Source of the DNA: a virus | Strand: one strand, 5' to 3' | IMG/VR virus record: IMGVR_UViG_3300037297_000275 | Location: 1-63,970 of that record | DNA: 63,970 nt | In this document: positions 3,710 to 50,869 of the stretch, in pieces | How the letters are laid out: every line of letters begins with the position of its first letter | Position numbering within the stretch: position 1 is the stretch's first letter | Program-made: the position numbers and the translations under genes | Notes under the pieces: model-generated | Databases searched by the model: none | Told to the model about the DNA's origin: nothing | The model's input: the letters and a program-made list of their open reading frames with translations, nothing else

Positions 3710-4519
3710 ATGAAAACAAAGTATTTAAGAGACGGTAAAAAAGTAGCAGTTATTTCACAAATCAATGAAACTGAATTTATAGTTCAAGAAATCCTAGTTT
3801 CAGGTGAGAAAGAATTTCCTTCAGGTAAGAACTTTGTCGCAAACAACTTACTTGACGAACCTATTGAAACTTGGGAAGATAGAAGAATCAAGGAATTACA
3901 ACATAGATATAACCAAGTAAAAGCGCATCTAGAAAGCGAAACTAATATTTTAACAAAAGAATCTAGTGTTGTAAGAGAAAAGCTATCTTATCTTAAGAAA
4001 ACTTCTAAAAACCTAAATAAAGAAGCCTTAAATAAGCTTACCAGATATTTAACAGGAACTTATAAATATATAGTGCAAGGCGGATATAGTATTCAAATTC
4101 TAACTAAAGAAGATTGGAAAGAGAAAGAAGTTTGTAAAGGCTATCCTGAACTCCGATTGGTTTCTATTTTTGGTAGAGATGACGGAACGTTTACTTTTGG
4201 TTTAGGAGAGTATTATGACGCATCTGGTTCATCTACTTCTTTTATGCCGTGCAATACATTAAAAGAAGCTATTAGTTATGCGCAGAAACTAGTAAATAAA
4301 GAAAAGAATTATCATGAATCACATCTAGAGCTAGAAAAAGAGTATGAAATAAAACTAGATCCTACCAAAAAGAAAAGATTTTTAATGAGAAAAAAAGCAG
4401 ATCTAGAAAGTTCTATAGAGAGAAAAGAAAATTATATTAAAGATTATAATAAAGACAAAGAAGAATATAAACAAAAATTAGATGAGATTGTCAGTCAACT
4501 AGAAACTTTAACATCCTAA
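3710..4519 (+). CDS. Coiled-coil protein of unknown function
   Basis: The product is 269 residues and I do not recognise it. Residues 1-55 look like a small beta domain. Residues about 58-115 and 198-269 are strongly charged and heptad-like, suggesting two coiled-coil arms flanking a central globular part that contains a GRDDGTFTFGLGEYYDASG stretch. GGAGAGG lies 5 nt upstream of the start. It is probably structural or a DNA-metabolism accessory, but nothing visible decides this. Confidence 0.7.
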   Translation: MKTKYLRDGKKVAVISQINETEFIVQEILVSGEKEFPSGKNFVANNLLDEPIETWEDRRIKELQHRYNQVKAHLESETNILTKESSVVREKLSYLKKTSKNLNKEALNKLTRYLTGTYKYIVQGGYSIQILTKEDWKEKEVCKGYPELRLVSIFGRDDGTFTFGLGEYYDASGSSTSFMPCNTLKEAISYAQKLVNKEKNYHESHLELEKEYEIKLDPTKKKRFLMRKKADLESSIERKENYIKDYNKDKEEYKQKLDEIVSQLETLTS

Positions 4520-4545: not shown

Positions 4546-4893
4546 ATGTTTGTAAAGAATGTAAAGATAAAGAAGCATGAATCTGGTAAGCTTCGAGGTT
4601 TTGCTTCGGTCGACTTCGCTTTCCGTAAGGATGGAGATGTTGCTGTAACAATTCCAGGTTGGAAGTTGTTTGCCGATAATGATGGAACTATTCAAGTTAG
4701 CGCTCCATCAATAAAAGACTCGAAAGGAAATTGGCAGAATACTTTGTTCTTTTATACCAAAAAGAATGATGATGCTATTAAGTTCTTAGAATATATTTCT
4801 GGAGAAGTAAGAGTTTATTATAATGCCATGACAAAAGAAGAAACAAAACCAGACAAAGAGCCTCAAATATTAGGTGACGATATACCTTTCTAG
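4546..4893 (+). CDS. SpoVG-like protein with SSB-type acidic C-terminal tip; candidate ssDNA-binding protein
   Basis: The product is 115 residues. The core resembles SpoVG: KNVKIKKHESGKLRGFASV, then APSIKDSKGNWQNTLFF, matching the SpoVG pattern of a short beta sheet followed by 'PS----G---D---P'. The protein ends GDDIPF, nearly the same as the DDDIPF tip with which bacterial SSB recruits DNA-repair and replication proteins. SpoVG proteins bind nucleic acid. I infer a phage ssDNA-binding or SSB-mimicking protein. A strong AGGAGG site precedes the start. The nucleotide-metabolism and replication genes are nearby rather than adjacent. Confidence 0.65.
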   Translation: MFVKNVKIKKHESGKLRGFASVDFAFRKDGDVAVTIPGWKLFADNDGTIQVSAPSIKDSKGNWQNTLFFYTKKNDDAIKFLEYISGEVRVYYNAMTKEETKPDKEPQILGDDIPF

Positions 4894-6178: not shown

Positions 6179-6604
6179 ATGTGTTTGTTAATTAGCTTAG
6201 ATCAAGAAGAAAACGAAAGAGATCTAAAGAAGTGGTTTGGGAATAGAACCAAATTTACTTATGTTTACAAAGTTTTAAAAAAACAACAAAACGAAGATTT
6301 TTATAGATCTTGGTTTCATAACGGTTTTATCTGGGATTTTAGAAAAGGAAAAGTCTTTCAGGTGAATAGAGATTCAGAACCAACTGAAGAAGAATTAACA
6401 AACAGAGAAATTAATAAAGGGCTTCATGTCTACACTGGTTTGGAAAAAGCTAAAAGATCTAAAGGTTTTTTTAGCACAATCGTAAAATTCAGAGTTGAGA
6501 AAAAAGATATTGTTGCTGTTGAAAATTATTATGACAACCCAGAATATAACTTTAAAGAAGCAGTCTGCAGGAAATTAACTTTTGTTAAGGTCATAGAAGA
6601 CTAA
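6179..6604 (+). CDS. MCL-family paralog 2
   Basis: This 141-residue paralog starts MCLLISLDQEENERDLKKWFG and has all the family blocks described for the copy at 985, including GLHVYT and a terminal VCRKLTFVKVIED. It is adjacent to paralog 3, and the pair looks like a tandem duplication. It begins 4 nt after the kinase-like gene with only a weak ribosome-binding site. Confidence 0.8.
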   Translation: MCLLISLDQEENERDLKKWFGNRTKFTYVYKVLKKQQNEDFYRSWFHNGFIWDFRKGKVFQVNRDSEPTEEELTNREINKGLHVYTGLEKAKRSKGFFSTIVKFRVEKKDIVAVENYYDNPEYNFKEAVCRKLTFVKVIED

Positions 6605-6615
6605 GGAGTAAGAAT

Positions 6616-7044
6616 ATGTGCCTATATATTAAAAAAGATCAAGGAAAAAACGATAGGGATCTAAATCAGTGGTTTGGTAATAGAAAGAAATTTGCTTATG
6701 TCTACAAGATTCTAATAAAAAATAAAAAAGAAAGTTTCTATCGATCTTATTATTATAATAATTTTATTTGGGATTTTTCTAAAGAAAAAGTATTTGAAGT
6801 CTATAGAGACCTCAAACCAACTATCTTTGAACTAGGTAACGAAAGTATAGATTGGGGACTCCATGTATATACTTCTTTAAAAGAAGCTAAAGATATCTGT
6901 AGTAGCTTAGCCGAGGCAATTATAAAATTTCGTGTTAAAAAAGAAGACATCATTGCTATCGAAAATGGTTGGTATCGGAAAGAAGATAATTTCAAACAAG
7001 CAGTTTGTACCAAATTAACCTTTGTTAAGGTTATAGAAGATTAA
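6616..7044 (+). CDS. MCL-family paralog 3
   Basis: This 142-residue paralog starts MCLYIKKDQGKNDRDLNQWFG and shares the core and the terminal VCTKLTFVKVIED. AAGGAG precedes the start. It lies 11 nt after paralog 2 and is most like it in the C-terminal block, consistent with local duplication. Confidence 0.8.
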   Translation: MCLYIKKDQGKNDRDLNQWFGNRKKFAYVYKILIKNKKESFYRSYYYNNFIWDFSKEKVFEVYRDLKPTIFELGNESIDWGLHVYTSLKEAKDICSSLAEAIIKFRVKKEDIIAIENGWYRKEDNFKQAVCTKLTFVKVIED

Positions 7045-7052
7045 GGGAAAAA

Positions 7053-7475
7053 ATGAAAAGATACGAAGCTAATTATTTAAAAGATGTAAAACAAATAGAA
7101 CAACCAGAACAGAGACCAAAGAAGTGGGGAAATGAGTTAATCTTGGTTAATAAAGATTATACCTCTAAAGTAATGATCTTATATCCTGATATGCAAGTGT
7201 CTCTTCATTTTCATGCCGAAAAATCAGAAAGTTTTTTTCTTCTTGAAGGTCAACTAATTGTAGAGACTGTTAATCTAGCAACTGGTGAAACAACAAGAAC
7301 TTTATTGCAAAATAAGTTTGATTGTATTAGTATAGAGAAGATGGTTCCTCATACATTCTATTGTCCTGAGGGCCAAGAAGAAAATACTGTTTTTATAGAA
7401 GTCAGCACAACGGATTACATTAATGATAGCTTCAGACTTACCCAAAGTGGCGATATTAGGAGATCTTCTAATTGA
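7053..7475 (+). CDS. Cupin-domain protein, sugar-phosphate isomerase-like
   Basis: This 140-residue single-domain cupin has two motifs: SLHFHAEKSESFFLLEG (metal-ligand His, His and Glu) and VPHTFYCPEG (fourth His). The KKWGNELILVN start and the ending FIEVSTTDY resemble the cupin of type II phosphomannose isomerase/ManC C-terminal domains and stand-alone cupins found in capsule and LPS operons. It overlaps the HldA-like kinase by 53 nt, so a role in sugar supply is likely. It could feed mannose-6-phosphate towards the GDP-mannose dehydratase at 48751. The actual substrate is uncertain. Confidence 0.7.
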   Translation: MKRYEANYLKDVKQIEQPEQRPKKWGNELILVNKDYTSKVMILYPDMQVSLHFHAEKSESFFLLEGQLIVETVNLATGETTRTLLQNKFDCISIEKMVPHTFYCPEGQEENTVFIEVSTTDYINDSFRLTQSGDIRRSSN

Positions 7476-8319
7476 CGAAACATGGTTTGTCCAAACCCCA
7501 AAACTTTCTCCGGAGGCTCCCGTCCCAATAGCAAGAATACTGGAGAAAGAACCTCTTATATCTCCTGGAGGAGCAGGGCTAGCCGCGACATATGCCATCA
7601 AGAAGAATATTCCGTCTATATTAGTTTCTTGTGTTTCAGAAGAATATAAAGATCTACTCTTAAGTAAAAAGATAAAGGTAGAGAATTTGGGACAAACAGA
7701 GAATGTAAAAAAGATCAGATATCTTGATGTTGAATCAAATTATCATTTAATCAGAGTAGATACAGATGAAATTACAAATACATCAATTCAAACAAAGAAT
7801 ATTATTCCAAAATTAGAACATCTTATTCTTAGAGAGAATATTCCTGTTGTTGCTTTTCTAGATTATAGAAAAGGATTATTTAGAGATAGAAGCTTAGTTA
7901 AAAAAATAATAAAACTATGCGAAGACAAACGAGTTTCTACTTACGTTGATAGTAGAGGATCTATATCAAAATTTGTGGGTATTGATGTCATAAAAATTAA
8001 CTTAAAAGAATTTTACAATCTACAGAAGGAGATTAATGAAGATCCACAAGAAATTCTTAAACAGACAGAAGCAAAAATGTTAATTGTAACAAAGGGGAAA
8101 GAAGGAGCAACTTTATACAGAAAAGACGAAAAGTCACTTACGTGTAAAGTAAAGAAAGTTTCTGGTATTGCAGATGTAACTGGTTGTGGAGATGTATTTG
8201 ATATAAATTTTTGTTATTATAATTTTATAAAAAAATATTCTCCAGAAGACTCGCTTAAACTTTCTGTTGACGCTGCGAGTTTATATGCTTATACTACTAT
8301 GAATGAGAAACTATGTTAA
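7423..8319 (+). CDS. hldA: D-glycero-D-manno-heptose-7-phosphate kinase (HldA-like, PfkB family)
   Basis: The product (298 aa) matches the kinase half of HldE. It begins VAILGDLLIDETWFVQTPKL, followed by SPEAPVPIARI and PGGAG (residues about 29-52), the signature region of the heptose kinase. The C-terminal PfkB motif DVTGCGDVFD carries the catalytic Asp. It would phosphorylate heptose 7-phosphate at C1. The nucleotidyltransferase and phosphatase for the following steps are fused in the gene at 38414, so the phage splits HldE and adds GmhB. No heptose epimerase (HldD) or isomerase (GmhA) is visible in the window. It overlaps both neighbours. Confidence 0.85.
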   Translation: MIASDLPKVAILGDLLIDETWFVQTPKLSPEAPVPIARILEKEPLISPGGAGLAATYAIKKNIPSILVSCVSEEYKDLLLSKKIKVENLGQTENVKKIRYLDVESNYHLIRVDTDEITNTSIQTKNIIPKLEHLILRENIPVVAFLDYRKGLFRDRSLVKKIIKLCEDKRVSTYVDSRGSISKFVGIDVIKINLKEFYNLQKEINEDPQEILKQTEAKMLIVTKGKEGATLYRKDEKSLTCKVKKVSGIADVTGCGDVFDINFCYYNFIKKYSPEDSLKLSVDAASLYAYTTMNEKLC

Positions 8320-8514: not shown

Positions 8515-8778
8515 ATGAGCCGATGTGCCCATGCACAATCTACTTATAGATTAACAAAAATGCCAACTTGCAGAAAATGCAAACAGCCTTTATATCTAAC
8601 TGCAGTGGCCGCCAAAACAAAAAAAGGATATGTTTTTGAATGGGAGTGTACAAGGTGTAATAAATCAATTCCCTACCATTTAATACAAGAACCAGAATTT
8701 AGTGAAGAAGATAGGATATTACATGAATGGTGCAAACAAAATAATTCCAACTTATCAACTATTAGAAGAAACAATTAA
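8515..8778 (+). CDS. Small zinc-ribbon protein
   Basis: The product is 87 residues. CRKC (about 19-22) and CTRC (about 45-48) form a four-Cys zinc ribbon. An extra Cys and His near the N-terminus (SRCAHAQSTYRL) may add to it. GGAGA precedes the start. Such ribbons bind nucleic acid or protein; the role is unknown. The 3' end overlaps the next gene. Confidence 0.65.
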   Translation: MSRCAHAQSTYRLTKMPTCRKCKQPLYLTAVAAKTKKGYVFEWECTRCNKSIPYHLIQEPEFSEEDRILHEWCKQNNSNLSTIRRNN

Positions 8779-8989
8779 CAAACTAAGTAGTTTCGGTAAA
8801 AAAGAAATTTTAGAATTTCTATGTACTTTAACATACTCAATTGGTTCTTCATTTGAAAATGTAGGAACATTGTCTTCTGAAGAAGTACTTTTACTTTATT
8901 CAAAAAACCCAACAATTGGAAATGCGCTTATGACCCAAGCTCTTTGGATGAGAGATTTATGGCAAGAAAGGAACAATGAAAATGAATAA
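8723..8989 (+). CDS. Small helical protein of unknown function
   Basis: The product is 88 residues from ATG 8723; an in-frame GTG at 8702 is a weaker alternative. It is mostly helical with a GKKEILEFLCTLTYSIGSSF stretch and ends NNENE. I do not recognise it. It overlaps the zinc-ribbon gene by 56 nt and the Whirly-like gene by a few bases, suggesting coupled translation. Confidence 0.5.
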   Translation: MNGANKIIPTYQLLEETINKLSSFGKKEILEFLCTLTYSIGSSFENVGTLSSEEVLLLYSKNPTIGNALMTQALWMRDLWQERNNENE

Positions 8990-9473
8990 TAATCAACGAC
9001 CGCTACAATATAAGATTTACAAGGGAATAAAAGGAAAGTTTGGGGCAATCAGATTTGGCCTTTTGCCCGCATATGTCAATAGCGGAAATAACAACAAACC
9101 AGAAGGAGCCGTATTTGTAGAAGCAGCTCCAACAATAGGAGTAAATAATTACGACTGGGAAAACAGTAAAATTGTTTTTGCTCTTAAAGTTACAGATATT
9201 GGTAAGATTCTGTCTTTTCTAAAGACAAAAAACGAATCAAATCTAATACTATTACATGATACTGGTCTTAGTAAAGGGCAGCCTCAAGGAGAATTAGTAA
9301 CAATTCTTAATATTTCGCGGCCAAATGAAACAATGAAATCATTTTGGGTGAACATGAGCCAAAAAGAACAAGGATCTGTTAAAAATGAAGTAAAAATTCC
9401 AATCTCTATTGATGAAATGTTTGTAATTTATACTCTACTGGAAGCTGCCATTCCTAGAATCCTTGCTTGGTAA
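8982..9473 (+). CDS. Whirly-type single-stranded DNA-binding protein
   Basis: The product is 163 residues. The layout follows plant Whirly proteins closely: an N-terminal YKGIKGKFGAIRF block in the place of the plant KGKAAL motif, then IGVNNYDWENSKIVFALKV-TDIG, LLHDTGLSKG, a G-V--L strand, FWVNMSQKE, and IPISIDEMFV followed by AIPRILAW in place of the plant 'PYLLGW'. Whirly proteins form tetramers that bind ssDNA without sequence preference. I infer that this is a replication or recombination ssDNA-binding protein. AAAGGAA at 8967-8973 favours ATG 8982 over the in-frame ATG at 8976. Confidence 0.75.
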   Translation: MNNNQRPLQYKIYKGIKGKFGAIRFGLLPAYVNSGNNNKPEGAVFVEAAPTIGVNNYDWENSKIVFALKVTDIGKILSFLKTKNESNLILLHDTGLSKGQPQGELVTILNISRPNETMKSFWVNMSQKEQGSVKNEVKIPISIDEMFVIYTLLEAAIPRILAW

Positions 9474-9508: not shown

Positions 9509-9955
9509 ATGTGTTTATTTATTAAACCAGATCAAGAAGAGAACGAAGAAGACCTAAGAAGATGGTTTAAGTCTCATCATAAATGGTTTGGAGTTCATAA
9601 AGGTTTTGCCTATGTTTATAAAGTATTAGTAAAAAAGCCAAATGAAGATTTTTACAGATCTCCTCGTTTTCCAGATTATAAATGGGATTTTAATAACCAA
9701 AAGGTTTTTCAAGTGAGGAGAAGTCATAAGCCAACTCAAGAAGAACTAGAGAATAGAAGTATAGAGATAGGTCTTCATGTATATACTCATTTAGAATCTA
9801 TGAAGCCTTACCTAGACTCTAATGAAGTAGTTGTAAAATTCAGAGTTAGAAAAGAAAATATTGTTGCTATTGAAAACAATTATAAAGTAAAGAAATATAA
9901 CTTCGAAGAAGCTGTATGTACCAAATTAGAATTTGTTAAAGTTATTGAAAATTAA
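9509..9955 (+). CDS. MCL-family paralog 4 (with local insertion)
   Basis: At 148 residues this is the longest family member. It differs by a small insertion in the first block: RRWFKSHHKWFGVHKGFAYV contains a second WF where other copies have one, which looks like an internal duplication of about six residues. Other blocks are intact, including GLHVYT and VCTKLEFVKVIEN. AAGGAAAAAG precedes the start. Confidence 0.8.
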   Translation: MCLFIKPDQEENEEDLRRWFKSHHKWFGVHKGFAYVYKVLVKKPNEDFYRSPRFPDYKWDFNNQKVFQVRRSHKPTQEELENRSIEIGLHVYTHLESMKPYLDSNEVVVKFRVRKENIVAIENNYKVKKYNFEEAVCTKLEFVKVIEN

Positions 9956-9966
9956 AGGAAAAAGAA

Positions 9967-10398
9967 ATGTGTTTATGGATTCAACCAGATCAAGATCAAA
10001 ACGAGAAAGACTTAAAGAAGTGGTTCGGTAATAGAAAAAAATTCGCATACGTTTATAAGGTATTAAGAAAATGGTCATGTGAGTCTTTTTACAGATCTCT
10101 TCTCTATGGTAATTTTAAGTGGGACTTTGAAAAACAGAAAGAATTTCAAGTCGATAGAGATCTCAAACTTACTAAAAGCGAATTACTTTCAGAACAAATC
10201 AACAAAGGTTTTCACGTTTATACTAGTCTTAAATTAGCTAAATCATGGATCTCTAATGAGCCAAACTCAGTAATAGTAAAATTTAAAGTTAGAAAAGAAA
10301 ATATTATTGCTATTCAAAATAGTTCGTTTATTTCAGAAAAATATCGTTTTAAAGAATTAGTTTGTACTAGATTAGAATTTGTCAAGGTAATTGAATAA
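9967..10398 (+). CDS. MCL-family paralog 5
   Basis: This 143-residue paralog starts MCLWIQPDQDQNEKDLKKWFG. It follows paralog 4 by 11 nt, the same spacing as between paralogs 2 and 3. All family blocks are present, with GFHVYTSLKLAK and a terminal VCTRLEFVKVIE. Its stop overlaps the next start by one base. Confidence 0.8.
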   Translation: MCLWIQPDQDQNEKDLKKWFGNRKKFAYVYKVLRKWSCESFYRSLLYGNFKWDFEKQKEFQVDRDLKLTKSELLSEQINKGFHVYTSLKLAKSWISNEPNSVIVKFKVRKENIIAIQNSSFISEKYRFKELVCTRLEFVKVIE

Positions 10399-10880: not shown

Positions 10881-11306
10881 ATGTGTTTGTTAATCAATCC
10901 AGATCAAAGCCAAAATAAAAAAGACCTAGATCATTGGTTTGGGTCTCGTAAAAAGTTTGCTTATGTCTATAAATTCCTAAGAAAAACAACTAAATTACCT
11001 GGAAACCTTGGCCAATCAATAGTATATAAGTCTCCATACTTTGAGTTTTTTAAATGGAACTTTAGAAAACAAAAGATCTTTCAAGTAAAAAGATCTTATA
11101 AAGTTACCGAAGATGAACTTGATTTAGGAAGGATTTGTGTGGGGCTTCATGTATGTACTTCTCTCAAAGAAGCCAAAAGAAAGAAATATCCTAGTGATAT
11201 AATTGTAAAATTTAAGGTTTTAAAAAAAGATATAGTTGCTGTAGATAATAGTTGTCGTGAAGCTTTTTGTAGAAAGTTAACGTTTGTTAAGGTTTTAGAG
11301 GATTAA
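10881..11306 (+). CDS. MCL-family paralog 6
   Basis: This 141-residue paralog starts MCLLINPDQSQNKKDLDHWFG. It has an insertion after the first block (TTKLPGNLGQSIVYKS) and a shortened penultimate block (AVDNSCREAFCRKLTFVKV), making it the most divergent copy. AAGGAG precedes the start. Confidence 0.8.
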   Translation: MCLLINPDQSQNKKDLDHWFGSRKKFAYVYKFLRKTTKLPGNLGQSIVYKSPYFEFFKWNFRKQKIFQVKRSYKVTEDELDLGRICVGLHVCTSLKEAKRKKYPSDIIVKFKVLKKDIVAVDNSCREAFCRKLTFVKVLED

Positions 11307-12793: not shown

Positions 12794-13219
12794 ATGTGTT
12801 TGCGTATTAAGTCGGATCAAATCCAAAACGAAAAAGATTTAAATCGTTGGTTTGGTTCTCGTAAAAAGTTCGCCTATGTTTATAAAGTTCTGAGAAAATG
12901 GGATGATGAAGATTTTTATAGATCTCTCTGGCATCCTGAATTCATTTGGGATTTTTCAAAACAGAAAGTATATCAAATAGATAGGGTTTCGGGACTAACT
13001 AAAGATGAACTAGACAGAAAGGTTGTTAATGAAGGATTTCATGTTTATACTTCTCTTGAAATAGCTACATTTAATTGTGGTTCTTGTTTTGAAAAAATCG
13101 CAAAATTTCGCGTTAAGAGAGAAGATGTTGTCGCTATTGAGAATAATTATAACAACAAAGAACTTAATCTTAAAGAATTAGTTTGTACCAAATTAGAATT
13201 TGTTAGAATAGTAGACTAA
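12794..13219 (+). CDS. MCL-family paralog 7
   Basis: This 141-residue paralog starts MCLRIKSDQIQNEKDLNRWFG, with GFHVYTSLEIA and a terminal VCTKLEFVRIVD. AAGGAG lies upstream within the ligase 3' end. It is the last copy in the window and stands directly before the reductase module. Confidence 0.8.
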   Translation: MCLRIKSDQIQNEKDLNRWFGSRKKFAYVYKVLRKWDDEDFYRSLWHPEFIWDFSKQKVYQIDRVSGLTKDELDRKVVNEGFHVYTSLEIATFNCGSCFEKIAKFRVKREDVVAIENNYNNKELNLKELVCTKLEFVRIVD

Positions 13220-13460: not shown

Positions 13461-16400
13461 TTGACAATTAAAACCAAGATCGTAGATGCAACTATTAGAG
13501 ATAAAGATGGAAATATTATTAGTGGAAAAGAAAATTTTGAAGTACCAGAAGATTGGAGCGATAGAGCTGCCCAAATTGTAGCCTCTAAATATGCTACTGA
13601 TAAAGAAACCTCTGTATTACAAATTATAGATAGAGTAGTAAACCAAATAACAGAATGGGGGGTTGAACAAGATTACTTTAAAGATAAAGAATTTTATAGT
13701 AACGACTCTATAAAAAATGACTTATCGATATGGGAAGCTTCTATACATGACGCCCCAGACTATATTAAATTTGCAAAGAAACTCAAAGAAATTCTTATTG
13801 ATCAAAGAGGTACCTTTAATACTCCGGTTTGGCTAAATATTGGAGTTCCAGAGAATAAAAGTCAAAGTTCTGCCTGCTTTCTTGCAACAATTGAAGATAA
13901 TATGGAAGATATTTCTACTCATCATATTAGATCTGGTCGTATATTTAAATCTGGATCTGGTGTTGGGTTTAATGTCTCTAAATTACGAGCTAAAGGAGAA
14001 AAATTATCTAATAAAGGAACTAGCTCTGGACCAGTTTCTTTTATGAGGCCATGGGATCGAACAGCGGGTGTTGTAAAGTCAGGCGGAAAATGTCTTGCTC
14101 CTTGGCAAAAAGTATACACGGAAAATGGACCTATTGAAATCTCAAAATTAATAGAGAAAGATTTTTGTGTAATTAGTTATGATCCTCCTTCTGGTCAGTA
14201 CAAAATAAAGAAAGGAAAAGCATGGAAGCAAGAATTTCAAAAAGAATTAGTAAGAATTATTACTGATAAAGGATCCTTTGTTGTAACAAAAGACCACCCA
14301 ATTAAAATAAACGGTTCTGAAGATTATATTTATGCAAAAGATCTATCAAAAGGAATGAGTTTATTTCAATGTTCAATTGATAATTTTATGCATAAATATA
14401 TAAGAATCCATTTACGAAATAATAAAAAAGGCAAAAACTTATTTCATCGAATGCTAGTCAGAGATATCTTAAAAAAAGAAATAAAGAATAAAGTTATCCA
14501 TCATATAGACGGGAATAGCTATAATAATGACCTTTCTAACCTTCAGGTTCTATCTCCTAAAGAGCATTCTTTTATCCATGGGAAAGAATTAGCAGAAAAA
14601 GGCCTTCATGTTTTTCAAAACCAATATTTTGGAAAATCCGGAGAAGAAAACCCAATGCACAGAACTTCTCCATTTTGGCAAAATAAAGACAAGGTTGCAA
14701 AACTTAAAGAAATTCATTCTAAACAAATGACAACCTCTCGTGCAAGAAAGATGCAGCCTTTTGCGACAAAGAAACGAATGATGAATTTAGCTTATATATT
14801 AATAAACAAAGGACATGATCTTTCTACCTTTGATAGATATCTTAAAGCAAGAAAAAAAGAAATAGGAAAACTCGGAGTAAGTAACAAAAAACAACTTGAA
14901 AAAATAGAAAATCATTTTGGATCTTATGAAAACTTTTATAAAGAAATAAGAGAAAATAACCATGAGGTTATTTCTATAGAAGAGTTGGGGTTTTCGGAAG
15001 TTTATTCTTTAGAAGTTGATTGTCTTACAGCAGATGATAAAACAAAAAATTCTGGACATAATTATGTTATTTGGCCAGAAAATAATAATACTGTTTTTGG
15101 ATCTGGCATTGTTGTTTCAAACAGCCGTCGCGCCGCAGTCCTTGTAGCAATGAATATTAATCATCCAGATATTGAAGAATTTATTGAATGCAAAAGCAAA
15201 GAAGAAAATAAAGCCAGAACTTTAATTGAAGCTGGAATCCCAATAGAGGAAGCTTATTCTACTGTTGATTTCCAAAATGCTAACCATTCAGTTGTTGTTA
15301 CAGATGAGTTTATGAAGGCAGTAAAAGAAGATCTAGATTGGAATCTTTATAATAGAGGAAATAAACAAATAGCAAAAACAGTTAAGGCAAAAGATTTATT
15401 TAGAAAAATCGCTACTCAAGCTTGGTATACTGGAGATCCAGGATTACAATTTTCCGATACTATTAATGTCTATAATCCATTAAAGAATACTGGAGATATT
15501 GAATGTTCAAATCCATGTTTTACTGGGGATATGAGGCTTTATACTAAAAATGGAGCAAAATCATTTAAAGAATTAGCCCTTCTTAAAGAAGAGATTGATC
15601 TTATTAACCCTATTAATAACAGATATGGACAAATAGCAAAAGGAAAAGTTTGGTCAAGTGGTATTAAAAATACAATAAAACTAACAACAGAAAAAGGACA
15701 TGTCCTTAAATGCACACCAGATCATATTTGGATTTTAAAAGATGGTTCTAAATGTAAAGCAATCGATTTGCTAGGTAAACAGATAATGTCTTTTGACGAT
15801 CTTTCAAGCAAAATAATAAAGATGGAAGATAATGGAGAAGAAGAAGTTTTTGATTTCTCTATTGATACAGATAAACATTGGGGGATCATTGAAGGTTTTG
15901 TTGCTCACAATTGTGGAGAGGTCTACCTTCCCCCTTGGGGATGTTGTCAATTGTTTTGTTTTAATCTATCAAAATATGTAGACAATAAGGGATATACTCT
16001 TGAAGGTCTCTTACAAAAAGATTGTAATATAGTTGTAACCGCAATGGATATCTTAATTGGAAACGCAGATTATCCAACAGAAGAATTTAAAAAAGAAGCA
16101 ATTGAAACAAGACCATTAGGAATTGGAGCAACAGATTTAGCTGGTTTTCTAATCAAGAAAGGACTTGCTTATAATTCAGAGAAGGGGAGAGAAGCTGCTC
16201 AAAGAATTATTTATATGATTACGGAACTTTGTACAAAAGAAAGTATTAATTTATCTAAAAAACTAGGTCCTTTTAAAAGATTCGAAGAAGAAAGAGATTC
16301 AACTCTCTATGTTTATAATAAAGTTCTTAAAGACTATTATAATTATGAGATCTTTACACATGGAATTAGAAATTGTACAGTAACCTCACTAGCTCCAAAT

Positions 16401-17336
16401 GGAACAACAGGAATGATGGTAGATTCTAGTGGGACTGGGATTGAACCTCTCTTTGCTTTAAAACAAACAAAACAATTATCTGGTGGTGGTACTCTAGAAT
16501 GGGTTCCTGATTGTGTAAAAAAATATAACACTCTTTATAAAGAAAAAGATCCAGAAGTATTAAAAACAGCTAACGAGATTCATTGGAAGGATCATCTCTT
16601 AATGACAGCTGCTCTACAGAAAGTTATCTCTATGGGGTTGAGCAAGACCACGAATCTTCCTTCAGAGGCAACTGTGGAAGATATTGAGAGAGCATATATT
16701 ATGGCCTGGGAGCTAGGATTAAAAGGTATTACGGTCTATAGAGACGGCTCTAAAGAATTACAACCACTAAGTGATGCTAATAAAAAAGCAAAGAAAGAAA
16801 AGACAAAGGTTGAAACTAAGATAATTTATCAGCCAACCCGCAATAAGCTTCCTGCGTCTATTAAAACTATAAGACATAAAATAGATATTGCTGGATTTGA
16901 AGGATACCTACATGTAGGTTTATACGAGAATGGCGAGCCAGGAGAAATTTTTATCCGCGCGTCGAAGCAAGGAAGTTTTGTACTTGGAATGCTAGATGCC
17001 TTTGCAACAATGGTTTCCATTGCTATGCAATATGGGGTTCCACTCAAAGACCTAGTAGATAAATTTAAAGGTCAACGATTTGAACCAAATGGAATAACTC
17101 AAAACGAAGATATAAGATTCTGTACTTCTATTATAGATTATATATTTAAGTGGTTAGAAAATAATTTTCTAAACAAACAACTAGAGTTACCTCTAGATAA
17201 AATAAAAGAAGAAAAACAAGAAATAGGAATTCAAACATATGAAAATGTATGTCCAGAATGTGGCGGGTTTATGCAACAAAGCGGAACCTGTCACTATTGT
17301 ACTAATTGTGGAGAAAATTTTGGGGGTTGCTCCTGA
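13461..17336 (+). CDS. nrdJ: Adenosylcobalamin-dependent (class II) ribonucleotide reductase with two inteins
   Basis: The precursor is 1291 residues, reducing to about 815 after both inteins splice. The exteins carry the class II reductase body: NTPVWLNIG, SSACFLATIED, GSGVGFNVSKLR, SGGK/SRRAAVLVAMNI, SNP/CGEVYLPPWGCC, and TVTSLAPNGTTGMM with DSSGTGIEP. They end in a zinc-ribbon tail with CPEC and CTNC pairs typical of NrdJ. No NrdB is seen, consistent with B12 radical chemistry. The start is TTG 13461 after AGGAGAG. It makes dNTPs for replication, with the dCMP deaminase and ThyX-like proteins downstream. Confidence 0.93.
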   Translation: MTIKTKIVDATIRDKDGNIISGKENFEVPEDWSDRAAQIVASKYATDKETSVLQIIDRVVNQITEWGVEQDYFKDKEFYSNDSIKNDLSIWEASIHDAPDYIKFAKKLKEILIDQRGTFNTPVWLNIGVPENKSQSSACFLATIEDNMEDISTHHIRSGRIFKSGSGVGFNVSKLRAKGEKLSNKGTSSGPVSFMRPWDRTAGVVKSGGKCLAPWQKVYTENGPIEISKLIEKDFCVISYDPPSGQYKIKKGKAWKQEFQKELVRIITDKGSFVVTKDHPIKINGSEDYIYAKDLSKGMSLFQCSIDNFMHKYIRIHLRNNKKGKNLFHRMLVRDILKKEIKNKVIHHIDGNSYNNDLSNLQVLSPKEHSFIHGKELAEKGLHVFQNQYFGKSGEENPMHRTSPFWQNKDKVAKLKEIHSKQMTTSRARKMQPFATKKRMMNLAYILINKGHDLSTFDRYLKARKKEIGKLGVSNKKQLEKIENHFGSYENFYKEIRENNHEVISIEELGFSEVYSLEVDCLTADDKTKNSGHNYVIWPENNNTVFGSGIVVSNSRRAAVLVAMNINHPDIEEFIECKSKEENKARTLIEAGIPIEEAYSTVDFQNANHSVVVTDEFMKAVKEDLDWNLYNRGNKQIAKTVKAKDLFRKIATQAWYTGDPGLQFSDTINVYNPLKNTGDIECSNPCFTGDMRLYTKNGAKSFKELALLKEEIDLINPINNRYGQIAKGKVWSSGIKNTIKLTTEKGHVLKCTPDHIWILKDGSKCKAIDLLGKQIMSFDDLSSKIIKMEDNGEEEVFDFSIDTDKHWGIIEGFVAHNCGEVYLPPWGCCQLFCFNLSKYVDNKGYTLEGLLQKDCNIVVTAMDILIGNADYPTEEFKKEAIETRPLGIGATDLAGFLIKKGLAYNSEKGREAAQRIIYMITELCTKESINLSKKLGPFKRFEEERDSTLYVYNKVLKDYYNYEIFTHGIRNCTVTSLAPNGTTGMMVDSSGTGIEPLFALKQTKQLSGGGTLEWVPDCVKKYNTLYKEKDPEVLKTANEIHWKDHLLMTAALQKVISMGLSKTTNLPSEATVEDIERAYIMAWELGLKGITVYRDGSKELQPLSDANKKAKKEKTKVETKIIYQPTRNKLPASIKTIRHKIDIAGFEGYLHVGLYENGEPGEIFIRASKQGSFVLGMLDAFATMVSIAMQYGVPLKDLVDKFKGQRFEPNGITQNEDIRFCTSIIDYIFKWLENNFLNKQLELPLDKIKEEKQEIGIQTYENVCPECGGFMQQSGTCHYCTNCGENFGGCS
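14091..15122 (+). mobile_element. Intein 1 in the ribonucleotide reductase, with HNH homing endonuclease
   Basis: This 344-residue insertion lies between SGGK and SRRAA of the reductase. It starts with Cys (CLAPWQKVYTENG, block A), has block B around FVVTKDHPIKI, and an HNH-type core (HHIDGNSYNNDLSNLQVL). It ends in block F (VYSLEVDCL, then NSGHNYVI) and block G (GSGIVVSN), with Ser as the +1 extein residue. The HNH domain probably makes it a self-propagating element. Cys1, the block-B His and the terminal Asn are present. The penultimate residue is Ser rather than His, an accepted but less common variant. Confidence 0.88.
15516..15911 (+). mobile_element. Intein 2 in the ribonucleotide reductase, mini-intein without endonuclease
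   Basis: This 132-residue insertion lies between SNP and CGEVYLPP, the conserved active-site loop of the reductase. Cys1 (CFTGDMRLYTKNG), block B with TPDHIWIL, block F (EEEVFDFSIDTDKHWG) and a canonical His-Asn end followed by +1 Cys are visible. There is no endonuclease domain, so it is splicing-only and can no longer home by itself. Placement in an essential loop makes correct splicing necessary for reductase activity. Confidence 0.88.
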
Positions 17337-37845: not shown

Positions 37846-38421
37846 ATGCATACAATTGGTATCGATATGGATGGAACCATTGCTGACTTTATTGGTGGTT
37901 TTGTAAGAGCTGCAAATAATAAATATGGAAGCCCAGGTAATAATATTAAAAGAACAGATATTACAGAATACAACCTTAAAACTGTGCTTAATAAGAAATT
38001 TCCTATTTCAAAAGAAGAAAAAAACCTATTAGAAAATCTTATTCAACCAGAATTTTTTACTTATCTAGATATTTTTCCAGAGGTAGTTGAAACACTAAAA
38101 CAATTGAACAAAAAAAATAAAATTATTATCATTTCTAGAGCAATAAATTTTTATAATTGTACTTCAGAAAAAACAAGATGGCTAAAACATCATCTTAAAG
38201 ACATCAACTACGACATTATTTATGTAGATAGTTCTTCTAATAAAACTCTTATTAATGTAGATTATATGGTTGATGACGATCCAAAAGTGATTAGTAAACT
38301 AACTACACAAACTGGGATTATGACTGAACAACCTTGGAATCTAAAATATAGACAAGAAAATAGAGTTATTTCTGTTGATAATTTTAGCAAAGTGAAAGAG
38401 TATATTTCCAACTATGAGTAA
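37846..38421 (+). CDS. HAD-family 5'-nucleotidase-like phosphatase
   Basis: The product is 191 residues from ATG 37846, which AAGGAAAG at 37834 supports over an in-frame start inside the previous gene. IGIDMDGTIADF is the DxDGT nucleophile motif, ISRA the second motif, and YMVDDDPKV the third acidic motif. The layout matches cytosolic deoxy-5'-nucleotidase-type phosphatases. Overlap by 8 nt with the heptose gene leaves a sugar-phosphate substrate open. Confidence 0.8.
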   Translation: MHTIGIDMDGTIADFIGGFVRAANNKYGSPGNNIKRTDITEYNLKTVLNKKFPISKEEKNLLENLIQPEFFTYLDIFPEVVETLKQLNKKNKIIIISRAINFYNCTSEKTRWLKHHLKDINYDIIYVDSSSNKTLINVDYMVDDDPKVISKLTTQTGIMTEQPWNLKYRQENRVISVDNFSKVKEYISNYE

Positions 38422-39463
38422 AATAATAACAAGAGAAGAAGCAATTCTTGTAAAAGAAGCAACCAAAAAAGTAAACAGCAATATTAGAATTGGTTTTACC
38501 TCCGGTGCTTTTGATCTATTACATTTAGGCCATATTGTGCGGCTTCAAGAAGCAAAAGAAAACTGTGATATGTTAATAATTGGAGTTAACTCAGATTCCT
38601 CAATTCAATCATATAAAAATTCAAACCGACCTATTATCCCGGAATCTCAAAGAATTTCTTGTATTGCTGCTCTAGAGTATGTTGATTATTGTTTTCTATT
38701 TACAGAAACAGATAATCATGAGAACCTTAAACAGCTTCAACCAGATTTCTTTTTCAAAGGGCCTGACTATACAAAAAAACAACTAGAACAACATTCAGAA
38801 GTCAAAAATTTTTCTGGAGAAATTAAAATTTTAGATAAAATAAATTGTGATATTCATACCTCTAATATTATCGAAGATGTTATTAACAAAGAACTTTTAG
38901 TAGAATGTTCAGAATCTCATATTTATGACGGAATTGTTTTTCTTGATCGAGACGGTGTTATTAACAAAGAAGTAAACTATCTTCATGATCCAAAAGATTT
39001 CGAATTTACAGAAGGAGCAACAGAAGCAATTAAAAGATTTAACGAGAAAAACTTTGCAGTTGTTGTTATTACTAACCAAGCTGGAATAGGCTACGGCTTT
39101 CTTACAAAAGAAGATTTTCTCAAGATAAACAAAAAAATGATATCTTTAGTAAAGAAAGAAGGAGCAAGAATAGATAAAGTATATTATTGTCCTGATCTTT
39201 TCTCTAGATCGTTTTATAGAAAACCAAATCCGGGAATGCTTTATAAAGCACAAAAAGATATCAAATACAAAAGACGATCTAACAACCAATTTATGATAGG
39301 AGATAGGCCTTCTGATATTCTTGCGGCTTGCACAAACGAACCTATCATTACTATTGCAGTTAAAACAGGATATGGAAAAGAAGTAGACTGGAATAAAGTA
39401 AATCCAGATCATATTGTTAAAAATCTTTTAGAAGCAAGTAAACTCATTTGCGAAAATTATTAA
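38414..39463 (+). CDS. Heptose-1-phosphate nucleotidyltransferase fused to heptose-bisphosphate phosphatase (HldC-GmhB)
   Basis: The product is 349 residues. Residues 1-160 are the cytidylyltransferase-like half of HldE: GFTSGAFDLLHLGHIVRLQEA (as GAFDLLHLGH, residues 31-40), GVNSD and FFKGPDYTK. Residues 170-349 are a GmhB-type HAD phosphatase: FLDRDGVINKE (Asp178 and Asp180), TNQAGIGYG, RKPNPGML (Lys270) and IGDRPSD. The Cys-rich zinc loop of E. coli GmhB is reduced to one Cys. With the kinase at 7423 this supplies kinase, phosphatase and nucleotidyl-transfer steps to an NDP-heptose, most likely ADP-D-glycero-D-manno-heptose. Confidence 0.88.
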   Translation: MSKIITREEAILVKEATKKVNSNIRIGFTSGAFDLLHLGHIVRLQEAKENCDMLIIGVNSDSSIQSYKNSNRPIIPESQRISCIAALEYVDYCFLFTETDNHENLKQLQPDFFFKGPDYTKKQLEQHSEVKNFSGEIKILDKINCDIHTSNIIEDVINKELLVECSESHIYDGIVFLDRDGVINKEVNYLHDPKDFEFTEGATEAIKRFNEKNFAVVVITNQAGIGYGFLTKEDFLKINKKMISLVKKEGARIDKVYYCPDLFSRSFYRKPNPGMLYKAQKDIKYKRRSNNQFMIGDRPSDILAACTNEPIITIAVKTGYGKEVDWNKVNPDHIVKNLLEASKLICENY

Positions 39464-45905: not shown

Positions 45906-47873
45906 ATGAAATCTATTAGAAATCGACATGGAATATTTTCTCCAGTTCCTGCCCGGGTAATAAATATTTCTTCTAAAAGGAAAAAACCTGTCACAAATCC
46001 TCTTCAACTAGACAAACTTCTTAAAAAAGAAACACCCTCTATCTTAATTAACCGAAGACTTGGTGGGATTGGAGATGTCTTAATGACAACTCCGTTATTA
46101 AAGAAAATCAAGAAAATACTCCCAAAATGTATTTTGACATATGCCACAGATCTCATTTACGCACAAGGTTCTCTTGCTGAAATAATTCAACACTGTCCAG
46201 TAGTAGATCAGCTAATCGCATCTAAAGAAGCGATTCCTCAAGAATATGATTATTCTGTTGATGTTACGACTACTGGCCTGATAAAAGAAAAGATTGGAGA
46301 TATCCCCCCTAATAGAATTGATTTATTTGCGGAAGCGGTTGGGCTTTCGGTAGAAGAAGACCCTGTGCCTCTTTACGTAATAACAAAAGAAGAAAAACTT
46401 TCTGCTTCAAAAGAAATTAAAGAAAAATATCTTTTAGGAGAAGAAAGGGCAGATCTCAATCTTATCGCAATTCAGACTAGAAGTAATGACGCTAGACGAA
46501 CTTGGCCATTTGAAAAAGTTAAAGAACTATATACGTTACTCTCAAACAATCCTAAAAATAGAGTTTTGTTGTTAGACTGGACAGGAACTGTTAGTAAATG
46601 GACTAATCTTCCTGAAAGAGTCTTTGGTTTTTTTGATCGAAGTATTGCTGATACTGCTGCAATTTTAGATCAATGCGATGTAGTAGTTGCTCCAGATAGT
46701 AGTATTCTTCATTTGGCGGGAGCGCTTGAAAAAAAGATAGTTACTATTTTTGGGCCTATCCCTCCTCAAAGTAGAGTAAATCATTATTCCAATGCTTCTG
46801 TTGTTCTAGCAAAACAAAGATGTCCGCATTTTCCCTGTTGGTATTCTCCAAGATGTATTAGATCGTCAAGTAAAGAAGCTCATTTGTCTTGTTTAACTAC
46901 AATTACAGCAGAACAAGTAGAAGAGGCTATTTATAAAAAATTACTAGAACCTTTAAACACACAAATAATTCAAAAACAAAATCGTTCCGACTTCAGATCA
47001 GATAAGATTATTCTTATAAGAAGAAAAACTTCTGGAATTGGTGATATTATAATGGCCTCAAATGGAATAGAGGCTGTTAAAAGAAAATATCCTAATCATC
47101 AAATTCACTTACAGGTTCAACCTTTTATAAAAGGAATTGTAGAAACAGACCCTAATGTTGAAAAAGTTTTTACAACAGAAGATTCTATTAATTACAGAAG
47201 ATATTCTCTTATATTTGATATATCTTCTCCTTGTGCGCATTATGAAAGCACAAGAGTAAGTCTAAGTAAATCTGTCGAGAAAAGTCGGGTTGAGGTTTTC
47301 GCGGAAGCTCTTGGAGTTAGAAATTTAATTACAGACCTGAAACCAAGATACTATCCTAAAGAAGAAGAATTGTTTTGGGCAGAAAAATGGAAAAAAGAAA
47401 ACATCAATACTGATAAAAAAACTCTTTTTATTGTCTTAAGCAGTGCTGAACTTTATAGAAACTGGCCAGAAACATATTATAAAACTCTAGTAGGCGGTTT
47501 AAAAGATAAATATAATATTCTTGTTAGGGGAGACTATATAAAAGGAACCCAAAACCTTAAAGATTTATCTTTTAGACAGGCAATGGCTGTTATGAAATAT
47601 TCAGATTTACTTTTCACTGTAGATACAGGACCTCTTCATATTGCTGCTTCTTACGAGATGCCTGTAATTACCCTATTTGGCCCTATTGATTATAGAGCTA
47701 GATGTAAAGGATATAAATCTGTTACTGTTGTAAAAGCAGGATTAGAATGTATTCCTTGTTGGAGAAATAGCTCAATAAAGTGTCAATATAAAAGGAGTTT
47801 GTCTCAATATTCTAGATGTTTAGAAATAATTAAACCAGAAAAAATCAAACAAATGATTTTACAAATTTTATAA
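45906..47873 (+). CDS. Double GT9 (heptosyltransferase-type) glycosyltransferase
   Basis: The product is 655 residues made of two tandem GT9 units. Unit 1 (about 35-335): INRRLGGIGDVLMTTPLL at its start, APDSSILHLAGAL and IFGPIPPQSR near its end. Unit 2 (about 360-655): IRRKTSGIGDIIMASNGI, then TVDTGPLHIAASYEMPV and LFGPIDYRA. Both end with Cys-rich HFPCWYSPRC and CIPCWRNSS segments. GT9 enzymes transfer heptose from ADP-heptose to LPS, and the related autotransporter heptosyltransferases modify protein Ser. Both active-site signatures look kept, so each unit may add a sugar. Confidence 0.88.
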   Translation: MKSIRNRHGIFSPVPARVINISSKRKKPVTNPLQLDKLLKKETPSILINRRLGGIGDVLMTTPLLKKIKKILPKCILTYATDLIYAQGSLAEIIQHCPVVDQLIASKEAIPQEYDYSVDVTTTGLIKEKIGDIPPNRIDLFAEAVGLSVEEDPVPLYVITKEEKLSASKEIKEKYLLGEERADLNLIAIQTRSNDARRTWPFEKVKELYTLLSNNPKNRVLLLDWTGTVSKWTNLPERVFGFFDRSIADTAAILDQCDVVVAPDSSILHLAGALEKKIVTIFGPIPPQSRVNHYSNASVVLAKQRCPHFPCWYSPRCIRSSSKEAHLSCLTTITAEQVEEAIYKKLLEPLNTQIIQKQNRSDFRSDKIILIRRKTSGIGDIIMASNGIEAVKRKYPNHQIHLQVQPFIKGIVETDPNVEKVFTTEDSINYRRYSLIFDISSPCAHYESTRVSLSKSVEKSRVEVFAEALGVRNLITDLKPRYYPKEEELFWAEKWKKENINTDKKTLFIVLSSAELYRNWPETYYKTLVGGLKDKYNILVRGDYIKGTQNLKDLSFRQAMAVMKYSDLLFTVDTGPLHIAASYEMPVITLFGPIDYRARCKGYKSVTVVKAGLECIPCWRNSSIKCQYKRSLSQYSRCLEIIKPEKIKQMILQIL

Positions 47874-47885
47874 AGAAAACAAATC

Positions 47886-48743
47886 ATGGCAGAAAATAAA
47901 ACTTTTATGTTGACTTTAGGAGGAGGACTTGGGGATGTTTTTTGGTATTATCTTGATGGACATAATGGATGGGATAGACTTGAAGCACTAAAAGAGAAAT
48001 ATCCCGATTCTAAAGTAAAAGTTTTTTCTTCTACTCATAATCCTCAAGTAGAAGAACTTCTTAAATACAATCCACATATTTATAAAGTTAAAGAATATGG
48101 TTGGGTTTTAGATGGAAATTCCTTATGGAGAAGACATAAAAAAAAATATACAAAAGTAAAAACATTAAAAAACTTAGAAAAAAGAAAGAACAAAGTTTAT
48201 TTATCAGATAAAGATAATGAGCAAATAAACAAAATTATTTCTAAAGGGCCTTTTATATTAATACATCCTTTTGCTGGAGAAAGACAAAGAATGTGTTTAG
48301 AGGCTAATGACTTTATTCCTATTATTGATTCCTTAATAACAAAAACAAAGTTAAATATAGTTGTGTTAGGAGGAACTTATACCCGAAAAAACAAAAATTC
48401 TTCTTACCAAATGCGCGAGTCGTTTTTGTATGAAAGAGAAGGACTTATTAATCTAGTAAATAAAACAAATGCAAGAGTAGGAGCAGTTCTAGCTTCTAAA
48501 CAACACAGTTTTGTTGGTTGCTGGTCTGCTTATTCTTGTGCTTCTTGGATTTATAATAAACCTAGTACTATTATTGTTCCTAAAAACTGGGCTAGAATCT
48601 TCAGAAAGAATAAACAAGCTGAAGGAGGAAGATGGGCCAACAAAGAGGTTAATATAGTATCTATAAATGGAGATCTTTTTCACAAAAATATTAAAGAGAT
48701 AGACTTAAGCCAAATAACAAAACAAATATTAATAAATTATTAG
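47886..48743 (+). CDS. GT9-like glycosyltransferase, divergent
   Basis: The product is 285 residues. LTLGGGLGDVFWYYL resembles the GT9 nucleotide-loop start. Mid-protein ILIHPFAGERQRM and late HSFVGCWSAYSCASWIYNKP match positions of the GT9 acceptor/donor loops, the latter in place of 'DTGPLHIA'. It is a paralog of the protein at 50867. Donor and acceptor unknown; a Lys-rich middle may bind nucleotide or lipid-linked acceptor. Confidence 0.7.
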   Translation: MAENKTFMLTLGGGLGDVFWYYLDGHNGWDRLEALKEKYPDSKVKVFSSTHNPQVEELLKYNPHIYKVKEYGWVLDGNSLWRRHKKKYTKVKTLKNLEKRKNKVYLSDKDNEQINKIISKGPFILIHPFAGERQRMCLEANDFIPIIDSLITKTKLNIVVLGGTYTRKNKNSSYQMRESFLYEREGLINLVNKTNARVGAVLASKQHSFVGCWSAYSCASWIYNKPSTIIVPKNWARIFRKNKQAEGGRWANKEVNIVSINGDLFHKNIKEIDLSQITKQILINY

Positions 48744-48750
48744 GAGAAAA

Positions 48751-49779
48751 ATGGAAAGAGTTTTAATTACTGGAATTACTGGTCAAGTCGGATCGTATCT
48801 AGCAGAAAAATTCTTAGCAAAAGGATATGAGGTACATGGCCTTGTTAGAAGAACTAGTCTCTATACAAGAGATCGCATTGATCATTTAACCTCGAACAAA
48901 AACATTTACAATAAGATTCTTTTCTTACACTATGGAGACCTAACAGATGGTTCGAATATTTCTAGGCTAATAGAAAAAACCAACCCTTCTTATGTTGTTA
49001 ATTTAGCTGCCCAATCTCATGTCAAAATTTCTTTTGATGTTCCTGAATATAGTGCTCAAGTGGATGCAATAGGAGTTCTTCGTTTGTTAGACGCAATAAG
49101 AGAGATTTGTCCGTCTTCAAAATTTCTTCAAGCTTCAACAAGTGAGATGTTTGGAAAAGTACAAGAAGTTCCTCAAAAAGAGACAACTCCCTTTAATCCT
49201 AGAAGTCCGTATGCCGCAGCTAAAGTATTTGGATATTGGATTACGAAAAACTATCGCGAAGCATATGGCTTATTTGCTTCTAATATTATTATGTTCAATA
49301 CAGAATCTCCCCGAAGAGGAGAAAACTTTGTTACCAAAAAGATAACAACTGCAGTTGCTAATATTTCAAAAGGGAAACAGGAAAAAGTTCTTCTTGGTAA
49401 TCTTTCTGCTAAACGAGACTGGGGTTATGCTCCTGAATATTGTGATGCAATTATAAAAATAATAACTCATAAAGATCCTGATGATTTTGTTATTGCTTCT
49501 GGAGAAAACCATTCAGTTGAAGAATTTTGCAAAGCTGCTTTTGAGGCTGCAGGCATACCGTTGAAATTTAAAGGAAAAGGAATAGAAAGAAAAGGTTATG
49601 ATAGAGATGGCATTATAAGAGTAGAAGTAGATCCAAAATATTTTAGATTAACAGAGGTAGAAACTTTATTGGGAGACGCCTCTAAAGCAAAAAATATTCT
49701 TGGGTGGGAATCAACAACAAAATTTAAAGATATTGTTCAAAAAATGGTTCATTATGATATAGAAAGACTTCATGAATAA
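48751..49779 (+). CDS. gmd: GDP-mannose 4,6-dehydratase
   Basis: The product is 342 residues, a short-chain dehydrogenase/reductase converting GDP-mannose to GDP-4-keto-6-deoxymannose. NAD(P) loop GITGQVGS (8-15), HGLVRRTS typical of Gmd, the catalytic STSEMFG (Thr130, Glu132 region) and Tyr154-x3-Lys158 in SPYAAAK, and FNTESPRRGENFVT at the substrate site are visible. GGAGA precedes the start. The product would feed a 4-aminotransferase such as the protein at 53115 (perosamine route). Confidence 0.93.
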   Translation: MERVLITGITGQVGSYLAEKFLAKGYEVHGLVRRTSLYTRDRIDHLTSNKNIYNKILFLHYGDLTDGSNISRLIEKTNPSYVVNLAAQSHVKISFDVPEYSAQVDAIGVLRLLDAIREICPSSKFLQASTSEMFGKVQEVPQKETTPFNPRSPYAAAKVFGYWITKNYREAYGLFASNIIMFNTESPRRGENFVTKKITTAVANISKGKQEKVLLGNLSAKRDWGYAPEYCDAIIKIITHKDPDDFVIASGENHSVEEFCKAAFEAAGIPLKFKGKGIERKGYDRDGIIRVEVDPKYFRLTEVETLLGDASKAKNILGWESTTKFKDIVQKMVHYDIERLHE

Positions 49780-50407
49780 CTATTGGCAATATTATAGCGA
49801 ATCTTATCTTCAAGGACCTAGATGTTTTGAGATCCCTTTTGTTGTAAACAACATCAAAGAAGGCAACTCTTTAGAAATAGGAGCAAACTTAAGTTTATTT
49901 AAATGGTTTTTTGTTCGTAGAGGATATCCTTTTACCTTAATAGATCCAATAGGAGCAAATTTCAATAATGGTAAAAACAATCCCCTGGCAACCTGTATTA
50001 AAGAAGACATTCGAAAAAAAACTTCTAAAGAACTAGGAACGTTTACTAATGTCCTTTTAGTATCAGTTTTAGAACATATTGGTTTAGGTTCTTATAAACA
50101 AGAAAAGAGTTATTCTCCTATAAAAGAACAATTAAAAACGTTTCGTCACTGCATGTCTTTTGTAAAAAAAACTGGAAGAATGATCTGTACTCTTCCTTAT
50201 TCTGTTGTAAAACAAACAACAGAACTAAATTTTCTTCTTAAATATAATTACAATATGATTCAAGATTTGTATAAAGGGTATAATCTTGTTGATGAAAAGT
50301 TTTATATTCTTACAAAACCAATTCATCTTGATCGATGGAAAGAAGTATCTCGTCGAGAAACAGAAGGCCATAGAGGTAATATTTGTTTTGTTCTAGAACA
50401 CAAATGA
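49772..50407 (+). CDS. SAM-dependent methyltransferase-like protein
   Basis: The product is 211 residues. NSLEIGANLSLFKWFF matches the SAM-binding motif I, TLIDPIGAN the acidic second-strand motif, and VLLVSVLEHIGLG a motif of small-molecule methyltransferases (the SVLEH form is common). In this neighbourhood methylation of a sugar or glycan end is most likely. It overlaps gmd by 8 nt. Confidence 0.75.
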   Translation: MNNYWQYYSESYLQGPRCFEIPFVVNNIKEGNSLEIGANLSLFKWFFVRRGYPFTLIDPIGANFNNGKNNPLATCIKEDIRKKTSKELGTFTNVLLVSVLEHIGLGSYKQEKSYSPIKEQLKTFRHCMSFVKKTGRMICTLPYSVVKQTTELNFLLKYNYNMIQDLYKGYNLVDEKFYILTKPIHLDRWKEVSRRETEGHRGNICFVLEHK

Positions 50408-50631
50408 AAATTTCAAAAAAAATAGAAGGAATAATAAGCTTAAATATTATAATTTGGCATGAAGCTACCAAAATAAAAACAACAGACAATTTTTCAAGAT
50501 TGGGGCTTTCTTTAGAAGACAAAGGAAAAATCTTCTTAAAGATAAGGGAATATAACAATAAACGTTCATTGGTCAGATTTGAAATAGATAAATTCTTTAA
50601 TTCTGGAACTAATGAAACAAAGGTGTTTTAA
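50404..50631 (+). CDS. Small helical protein, possible DUF6165-like, tandem copy A
   Basis: The product is 75 residues from ATG 50404. The segment EGIISLNIIIWHEATKIKTT resembles MIDKLVVIHLKIWHLEEKIN in the next gene, so the two are probably diverged tandem copies. The overlap with both neighbours is 1-4 nt. Function unknown; found within a glycan operon. Confidence 0.5.
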   Translation: MKISKKIEGIISLNIIIWHEATKIKTTDNFSRLGLSLEDKGKIFLKIREYNNKRSLVRFEIDKFFNSGTNETKVF

Positions 50632-50840
50632 TGTTGAACTATAGTATTGGTGAAATGATCGACAAGCTTGTTGTAATACATTTGAAAATTTGGCATCTTG
50701 AAGAAAAAATAAATGAATTAAAAGACAATTATGAAAAAGAAAACCTAGAAGAAGTTGGAAAATTAGGAGAACAGGTTGTCTCTCTTAATAAAAGAAGAGT
50801 AGAAATCACAAAGGCTATTGATGAAGTTTTTTCTTTGTGA
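50631..50840 (+). CDS. Small helical protein, DUF6165-like, tandem copy B
   Basis: The product is 69 residues. SIGEMIDKLVVIHLKIWHLE recalls short proteins (DUF6165-like) that accompany glycosyltransferase genes in LPS operons. It is probably a helical hairpin. It ends immediately before a perfect inverted repeat (50841-50869). Confidence 0.6.
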   Translation: MLNYSIGEMIDKLVVIHLKIWHLEEKINELKDNYEKENLEEVGKLGEQVVSLNKRRVEITKAIDEVFSL

Positions 50841-50869
50841 CATCTAAAAAATGTTATAATTTTTAGATG
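50841..50869 (+). promoter_or_regulatory. Perfect hairpin covering a -10-like box and the start codon of the next gene
   Basis: CATCTAAAAA (50841-50850), a 9-nt loop ATGTTATAA and TTTTTAGATG (50860-50869) form a perfect 10-bp stem. TATAAT (50855-50860) lies in the loop and start codon ATG 50867-50869 is in the stem; there is no Shine-Dalgarno sequence. It may be a leaderless internal promoter, or a hairpin in readthrough mRNA that hides the start. Confidence 0.6.

Follow-up and report, generated by a model that had tools for sequence, protein, structure and literature searches.

A Whirly-family protein encoded by a phage and its conserved SpoVG-like neighbour

Introduction

Whirly proteins are homotetramers (the whirligig), and in plants they further assemble into 24-mers. 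The plant members bind ssDNA and protect the stability of the organelle genomes, and in higher plants the KGKAAL motif serves ssDNA binding and hexamerisation, whereas the green-algal homologues are without it (PMC9070903). Whirly is described as plant-specific in a 2022 review (PMC9070903) and in a paper of 2025 (PMC12230644). WHY has been called 'obtained' in the early green lineage, from a source that is not given, and red algae are without WHY (PMC4166229).

Arabidopsis WHY1/2/3 and potato StWhy1 (p24/PBF-2) and StWhy2 belong to the Pfam family PF08536. Outside this family, the guide-RNA-binding proteins MRP1/MRP2 of Trypanosoma and PUR-alpha have a Whirly-like fold. The BFVD/UniProt entry A0A6J5NR37, 'Whirly transcription factor [uncultured Caudovirales phage]', shows that a phage Whirly was already so labelled by automatic annotation, and BFVD also contains a match in Acinetobacter phage ME3; phage Whirlies are therefore not new to the databases. 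The literature searched held no published study of A0A6J5NR37 and no paper pairing Whirly with Caudoviricetes. Here we analysed a window of 63,970 bases from an uncultured phage, a full linear IMG/VR virus record that is possibly only part of a genome, and computed the family, the monomer fold, the spread over viral records and the conserved neighbourhood of one of its proteins.

A Whirly-family protein in the window

The original prediction had read one ORF of the window (Table 1) as a Whirly-type ssDNA-binding protein because of its motifs, and all of them were found in this plus-strand ORF: YKGIKGKFGAI, YDWENSKIVFALKV, HDTGLSKG, FWVN, IPISIDE and AIPRILAW. A search of Pfam-A matched PF08536 only, with 54.3 bits against a cut-off of 23 (E 1.6e-14), and the match covered the profile positions 22-135 of 136. 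With phmmer, the ORF matched the plant Whirlies StWhy2, p24 and WHY1-3 among the PDB sequences (E 2e-9 to 4e-8). A profile from 18 viral homologues found the same six plant Whirlies at E 3e-22 to 2e-21 and beyond them no significant match in the PDB sequences. No match was obtained in PHROGs. An in-frame ATG at 8976 is another possible start and would add two residues (165 aa); the AGGA at 8969-8972 fits the start at 8982 about equally well.

Table 1. Positions of the Whirly gene, the small ORF at its start and the SpoVG-like gene in the window
Feature	Position	Strand	Length	Basis and remarks
SpoVG-like protein	4546..4893	+	115 aa	C-terminus ILGDDIPF; family profile, AF2 fold, neighbourhood, tail
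Small ORF, no known family	8702..8989	+	95 aa	overlaps the Whirly start by 8-14 bases
Whirly-family protein	8982..9473	+	163 aa	PF08536 E 1.6e-14, AF2 model, Z 19.6 to WHY1

The monomer was modelled with AlphaFold2 (AF2) using 17 natural viral homologues, which gave a mean pLDDT of 87.8 and a pTM of 0.82. The predicted strands 9-13, 21-28, 43-53 and 64-68 are followed by a helix at 70-81, and the strands 87-93, 105-112, 121-129 and 132-141 by a helix at 143-160. This is the Whirly order bbbb-a-bbbb-a, so that both four-stranded sheets are present in the predicted monomer, each with a helix after it. When the model was compared to the PDB with Foldseek, the best 13 matches were all plant Whirly chains (E 7e-11 to 1e-8) and the next was a trypanosome guide-RNA-binding protein. 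The VIA-align Z scores were 18.0-19.6 for the plant Whirlies, with Arabidopsis WHY1 (4koo) as the best at 19.6, compared to 13.8 for MRP1/MRP2 and about 8 for PUR-alpha, the last two groups at about 10% identity or lower.

In the structural alignments the window protein is 22-26% identical to the plant Whirlies. The signature residues, YDW and the C-terminal W among them, are the same, and the positions common to the phage and plant rows are Y-K, G, YDW/F, H, E and the C-terminal W. In contrast to the plant proteins, it is virus-encoded, has no N-terminal organelle targeting region and its gene is accompanied by a SpoVG-like gene. Also, the KGKAAL region is altered by a three-residue insertion and reads KGIKGKFGAI, with the lysine-rich loop kept. 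The details of the DNA contact may therefore differ. KGKAAL marks the higher-plant subset only and not the membership in PF08536; a large marine clade of the viral proteins has KKSAAAQF in its place, and L012 alone keeps KGKAAM.

The membership is supported alike by Pfam, the PDB sequence search, the fold prediction and the occurrence in 20 more viral records, and the match is far above chance. These results confirm that the phage ORF encodes a true Whirly-family protein. The refuting condition attached to the original prediction, no significant Whirly profile match and a fold without the paired sheets, is thereby answered in favour of Whirly for the monomer.

Occurrence among viral records

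The window and 20 other IMG/VR records make up 21 firm Whirly-carrying viral records, of which a few are near-duplicates. When 23 whole records were checked with Pfam, 19 were above the Whirly cut-off. G018 and G019 were missed in this check; however, the G018 protein, searched by itself, scored 30 bits and was above the Pfam cut-off, and the protein of L027, which comes from G019, is identical to it. G005 and G012 encode marginal relatives, whose long acidic tails have W as the last residue.

The IMG/VR viral contigs gave no match in a single-sequence search or with a plant-heavy Whirly profile. A DNA motif designed around P..G...YDW..F[AS]L found 13 loci, all 13 with a Whirly-like ORF, L006 and L013 being only marginal, and a profile scan found 19 loci that partly overlap with them. 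The two marginal matches lie in large-phage proteins (L006:201-911 and L013:181-891, contigs of 236 and 223 kb), in which an acidic tail, long and of low complexity, runs to a final DW/NW, a layout like that of SSBs.

Two phage proteins from BFVD were compared. A0A6J5NR37 has the same fold (TM 0.74/0.85, E 2.8e-9) and is 25% identical to the window protein. ME3_95 (A0A172Q074) of the cultured Acinetobacter phage vB_AbaM_ME3, encoded at 97413-97778 of KU935715, matched the viral Whirly profile at E 7e-10 and the fold with a TMt of 0.83; as annotated, it has 121 aa and begins at the third strand. With tblastn, the proteins of the window, L008, L012, L013 and L033 had no match in 50,697 phage or 72,556 plasmid records, which is weak evidence because the diverged ME3_95 sits in the same phage collection. 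In GTDB, 84,980 genomes of bacteria and archaea were scanned twice by profile, and of the 58 and 20 candidates that resulted none was confirmed; the patterns were narrow and insensitive, and an absence of Whirly from cells is therefore not established by these scans. A search for close relatives of the whole phage by its primase-helicase found none.

The SpoVG-like gene

Of the 21 firm records, 19 have a SpoVG-like gene close to Whirly and on its strand, and the distance between the two rarely exceeds about 1.2 kb. The window departs from this, with the SpoVG-like gene located 4.1 kb upstream and not adjacent as in the relatives. By itself the window ORF reached 18 bits (E 0.003) against the cut-off of 29.6 for Pfam SpoVG (PF04026), whereas the relatives in L016, L017, L022 and L031 were above it. 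A profile of the viral family found the SpoVG of B. subtilis at E 3e-9, and the AF2 model of the window protein had SpoVG as its best PDB matches (prob 1.00) and as the sole credible fold. The genome of phage ME3 was searched for a SpoVG-like gene and none was found.

The small ORF that overlaps the Whirly start was followed by a profile in 23 records, by alignment and by a profile search of all loci. In nine records, among them the window and two near-duplicates, this ORF or a homologue comes immediately before Whirly; in the marine clade its place is taken by a gene for a PhoH-like ATPase. The pair of Whirly and SpoVG-like genes is conserved in the phages and, as far as we found, undescribed; it is the more novel part of the finding. 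Two ORFs at L026:1843-3863 immediately precede the SpoVG-like gene and Whirly; one is ThiF-like and the other resembles a reverse transcriptase, with a YADD motif recognised by eye.

Candidates for the main ssDNA-binding protein

It had also been proposed that Whirly could be the principal ssDNA-binding protein of the phage in place of an OB-fold SSB. The observation behind this proposal stood, as PF00436 had no match in the window, nor in G009, G010, G018, G019 and G021, and no SSB family was among the best 25 of the 107 PHROG families of the window. However, a weak SSB match may lie beyond these 25, the SSB-less records are fragments or of unspecified completeness, and 13 of the 21 firm records (14 of 23 with G012 counted) encode PF00436 SSB beside Whirly. 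An ORF at L015:6181-6525, taken by eye for a divergent OB-fold SSB, was unsupported by Pfam and PDB searches.

The C-termini bear on the same question. The DDDIPF at the C-terminus of E. coli SSB is a docking site for partner enzymes. The window Whirly ends in LAW without an acidic tail, and the SpoVG-like protein, as the only ORF of the window, has an end of the SSB type, DDIPF. An end of the form [ILVM]PF was present in only five of 643 ORFs. Three of them are SpoVG-like proteins, from the window, L016 (SIPF) and L026 (GIPF), all in records without PF00436 SSB, and the other two are ME3_59 (DDDLPF) and one long ORF. The SSBs that coexist with a SpoVG-like gene were without an acidic IPF-type tip, whereas G011 has an SSB ending in EDDDDGVPF and no SpoVG-like gene. 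These tips suggest that in three independent lineages, those of the window, L016 and L026, the docking of partners is a task of the SpoVG-like protein. Because the window is possibly a fragment, 13 of 21 records have an SSB and the SpoVG-like protein with its tail is a rival, the claim for Whirly as the main SSB is weak; we regard it as doubtful and rather unlikely.

In phage ME3, the hypothetical protein ME3_59 (L036:18758-19327) is encoded beside DNA polymerase genes and ends in NSQADDDLPF. It is likely an SSB in a phage that also carries a Whirly gene.

The distribution of the tails could also mean that the SpoVG-like protein does the job of the SSB and Whirly is only a helper. The three tailed SpoVG-like proteins and the tailed SSB of G011 speak for this, but the correlation comes from three lineages only, the ssDNA binding of the SpoVG-like group is putative, and the fragment G009 has neither a SpoVG-like gene nor an SSB. 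We hold this as a tentative possibility, short of an even chance.

Our preferred reading, which we consider reasonably probable, is that the phage Whirly is a tetrameric, sequence-independent ssDNA binder that acts as an accessory in replication and recombination beside a SpoVG-like or SSB partner. The protein would form the Whirly tetramer, which would bind ssDNA without sequence preference and may protect or align it in phage replication and recombination. It would be an accessory to a second ssDNA-handling protein, the OB-fold SSB in many relatives and, as we infer, the SpoVG-like protein with the SSB-type docking tail in this phage. RecA, DnaE and a primase-helicase are also encoded in the window, which we counted in favour of this role. 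The altered KGKAAL motif and the distance of 4.1 kb to the SpoVG-like gene count against it.

That Whirly regulates transcription via melted promoters or RNA, for example to switch phage or host genes, appears quite improbable. In its favour, the plant Whirlies entered the literature as transcriptional regulators and are able to bind RNA (PMC9070903), such a role has been proposed for the nuclear ones, and the neighbour gene belongs to the family of Listeria SpoVG, a regulator that binds RNA (PMC4959528). However, the surrounding genes belong to nucleotide, replication and recombination functions (PhoH, ribonucleotide reductase, RecA), and neither a regulatory domain nor a target site was observed.

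Relation to the plant Whirlies

A phage copy had been expected to be relevant to the origin of the plant Whirlies. The relevance is real, but the phylogeny gave no direction. With relatives on at least 20 other viral contigs, the family extends beyond plants, so that a phage source of the plant genes becomes testable. In an unrooted tree of 23 phage and plant rows, the window pairs with L015 (89/91), the plants form one group (100/99) and 13 viral rows another (95/94), with the remaining viral rows, the window included, on the plant side of the 13-row branch. As the deep branches are long and a root is lacking, no direction of transfer can be taken from this tree, which speaks neither for nor against a phage origin of the plant protein.

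The phage Whirlies are more divergent than the plant ones and are candidate donors or sisters, a question that is open to phylogeny. As a speculation to which we give a low probability, Whirly may originally have been a phage replication protein that was passed to the green lineage, like the T-odd-phage-like organellar primase-helicase, with Whirly and a tailed SpoVG-like protein replacing the OB-fold SSB in phages such as this one. The finding draws attention to the phage pair of Whirly and SpoVG-like protein, the latter with the tip of a bacterial SSB in some lineages.

Other genes in the window

Seven paralogues of about 141 aa are located around Whirly (985-1413, 6179-6604, 6616-7044, 9509-9955, 9967-10398, 10881-11306 and 12794-13219). 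They share the motif MCLxIKxDQxxNExDLxxWFGxRxKFAYVYK, had no Pfam match and were absent from the other loci analysed. The ribonucleotide reductase ORF (13461-17336, 1291 aa) has two apparent intein-like insertions, as judged by eye. The gene at 3710-4519 is a homologue of a hypothetical protein of phi80 and Pseudomonas phage phiPSA1 (29-34% identity, phrog_16901). At 7423-8319, 38414-39463 and 45906-54200 the phage carries a surface-sugar gene set with heptose-kinase-like, cytidylyltransferase/phosphatase, glycosyltransferase, nucleotide-sugar and aminotransferase-like genes.
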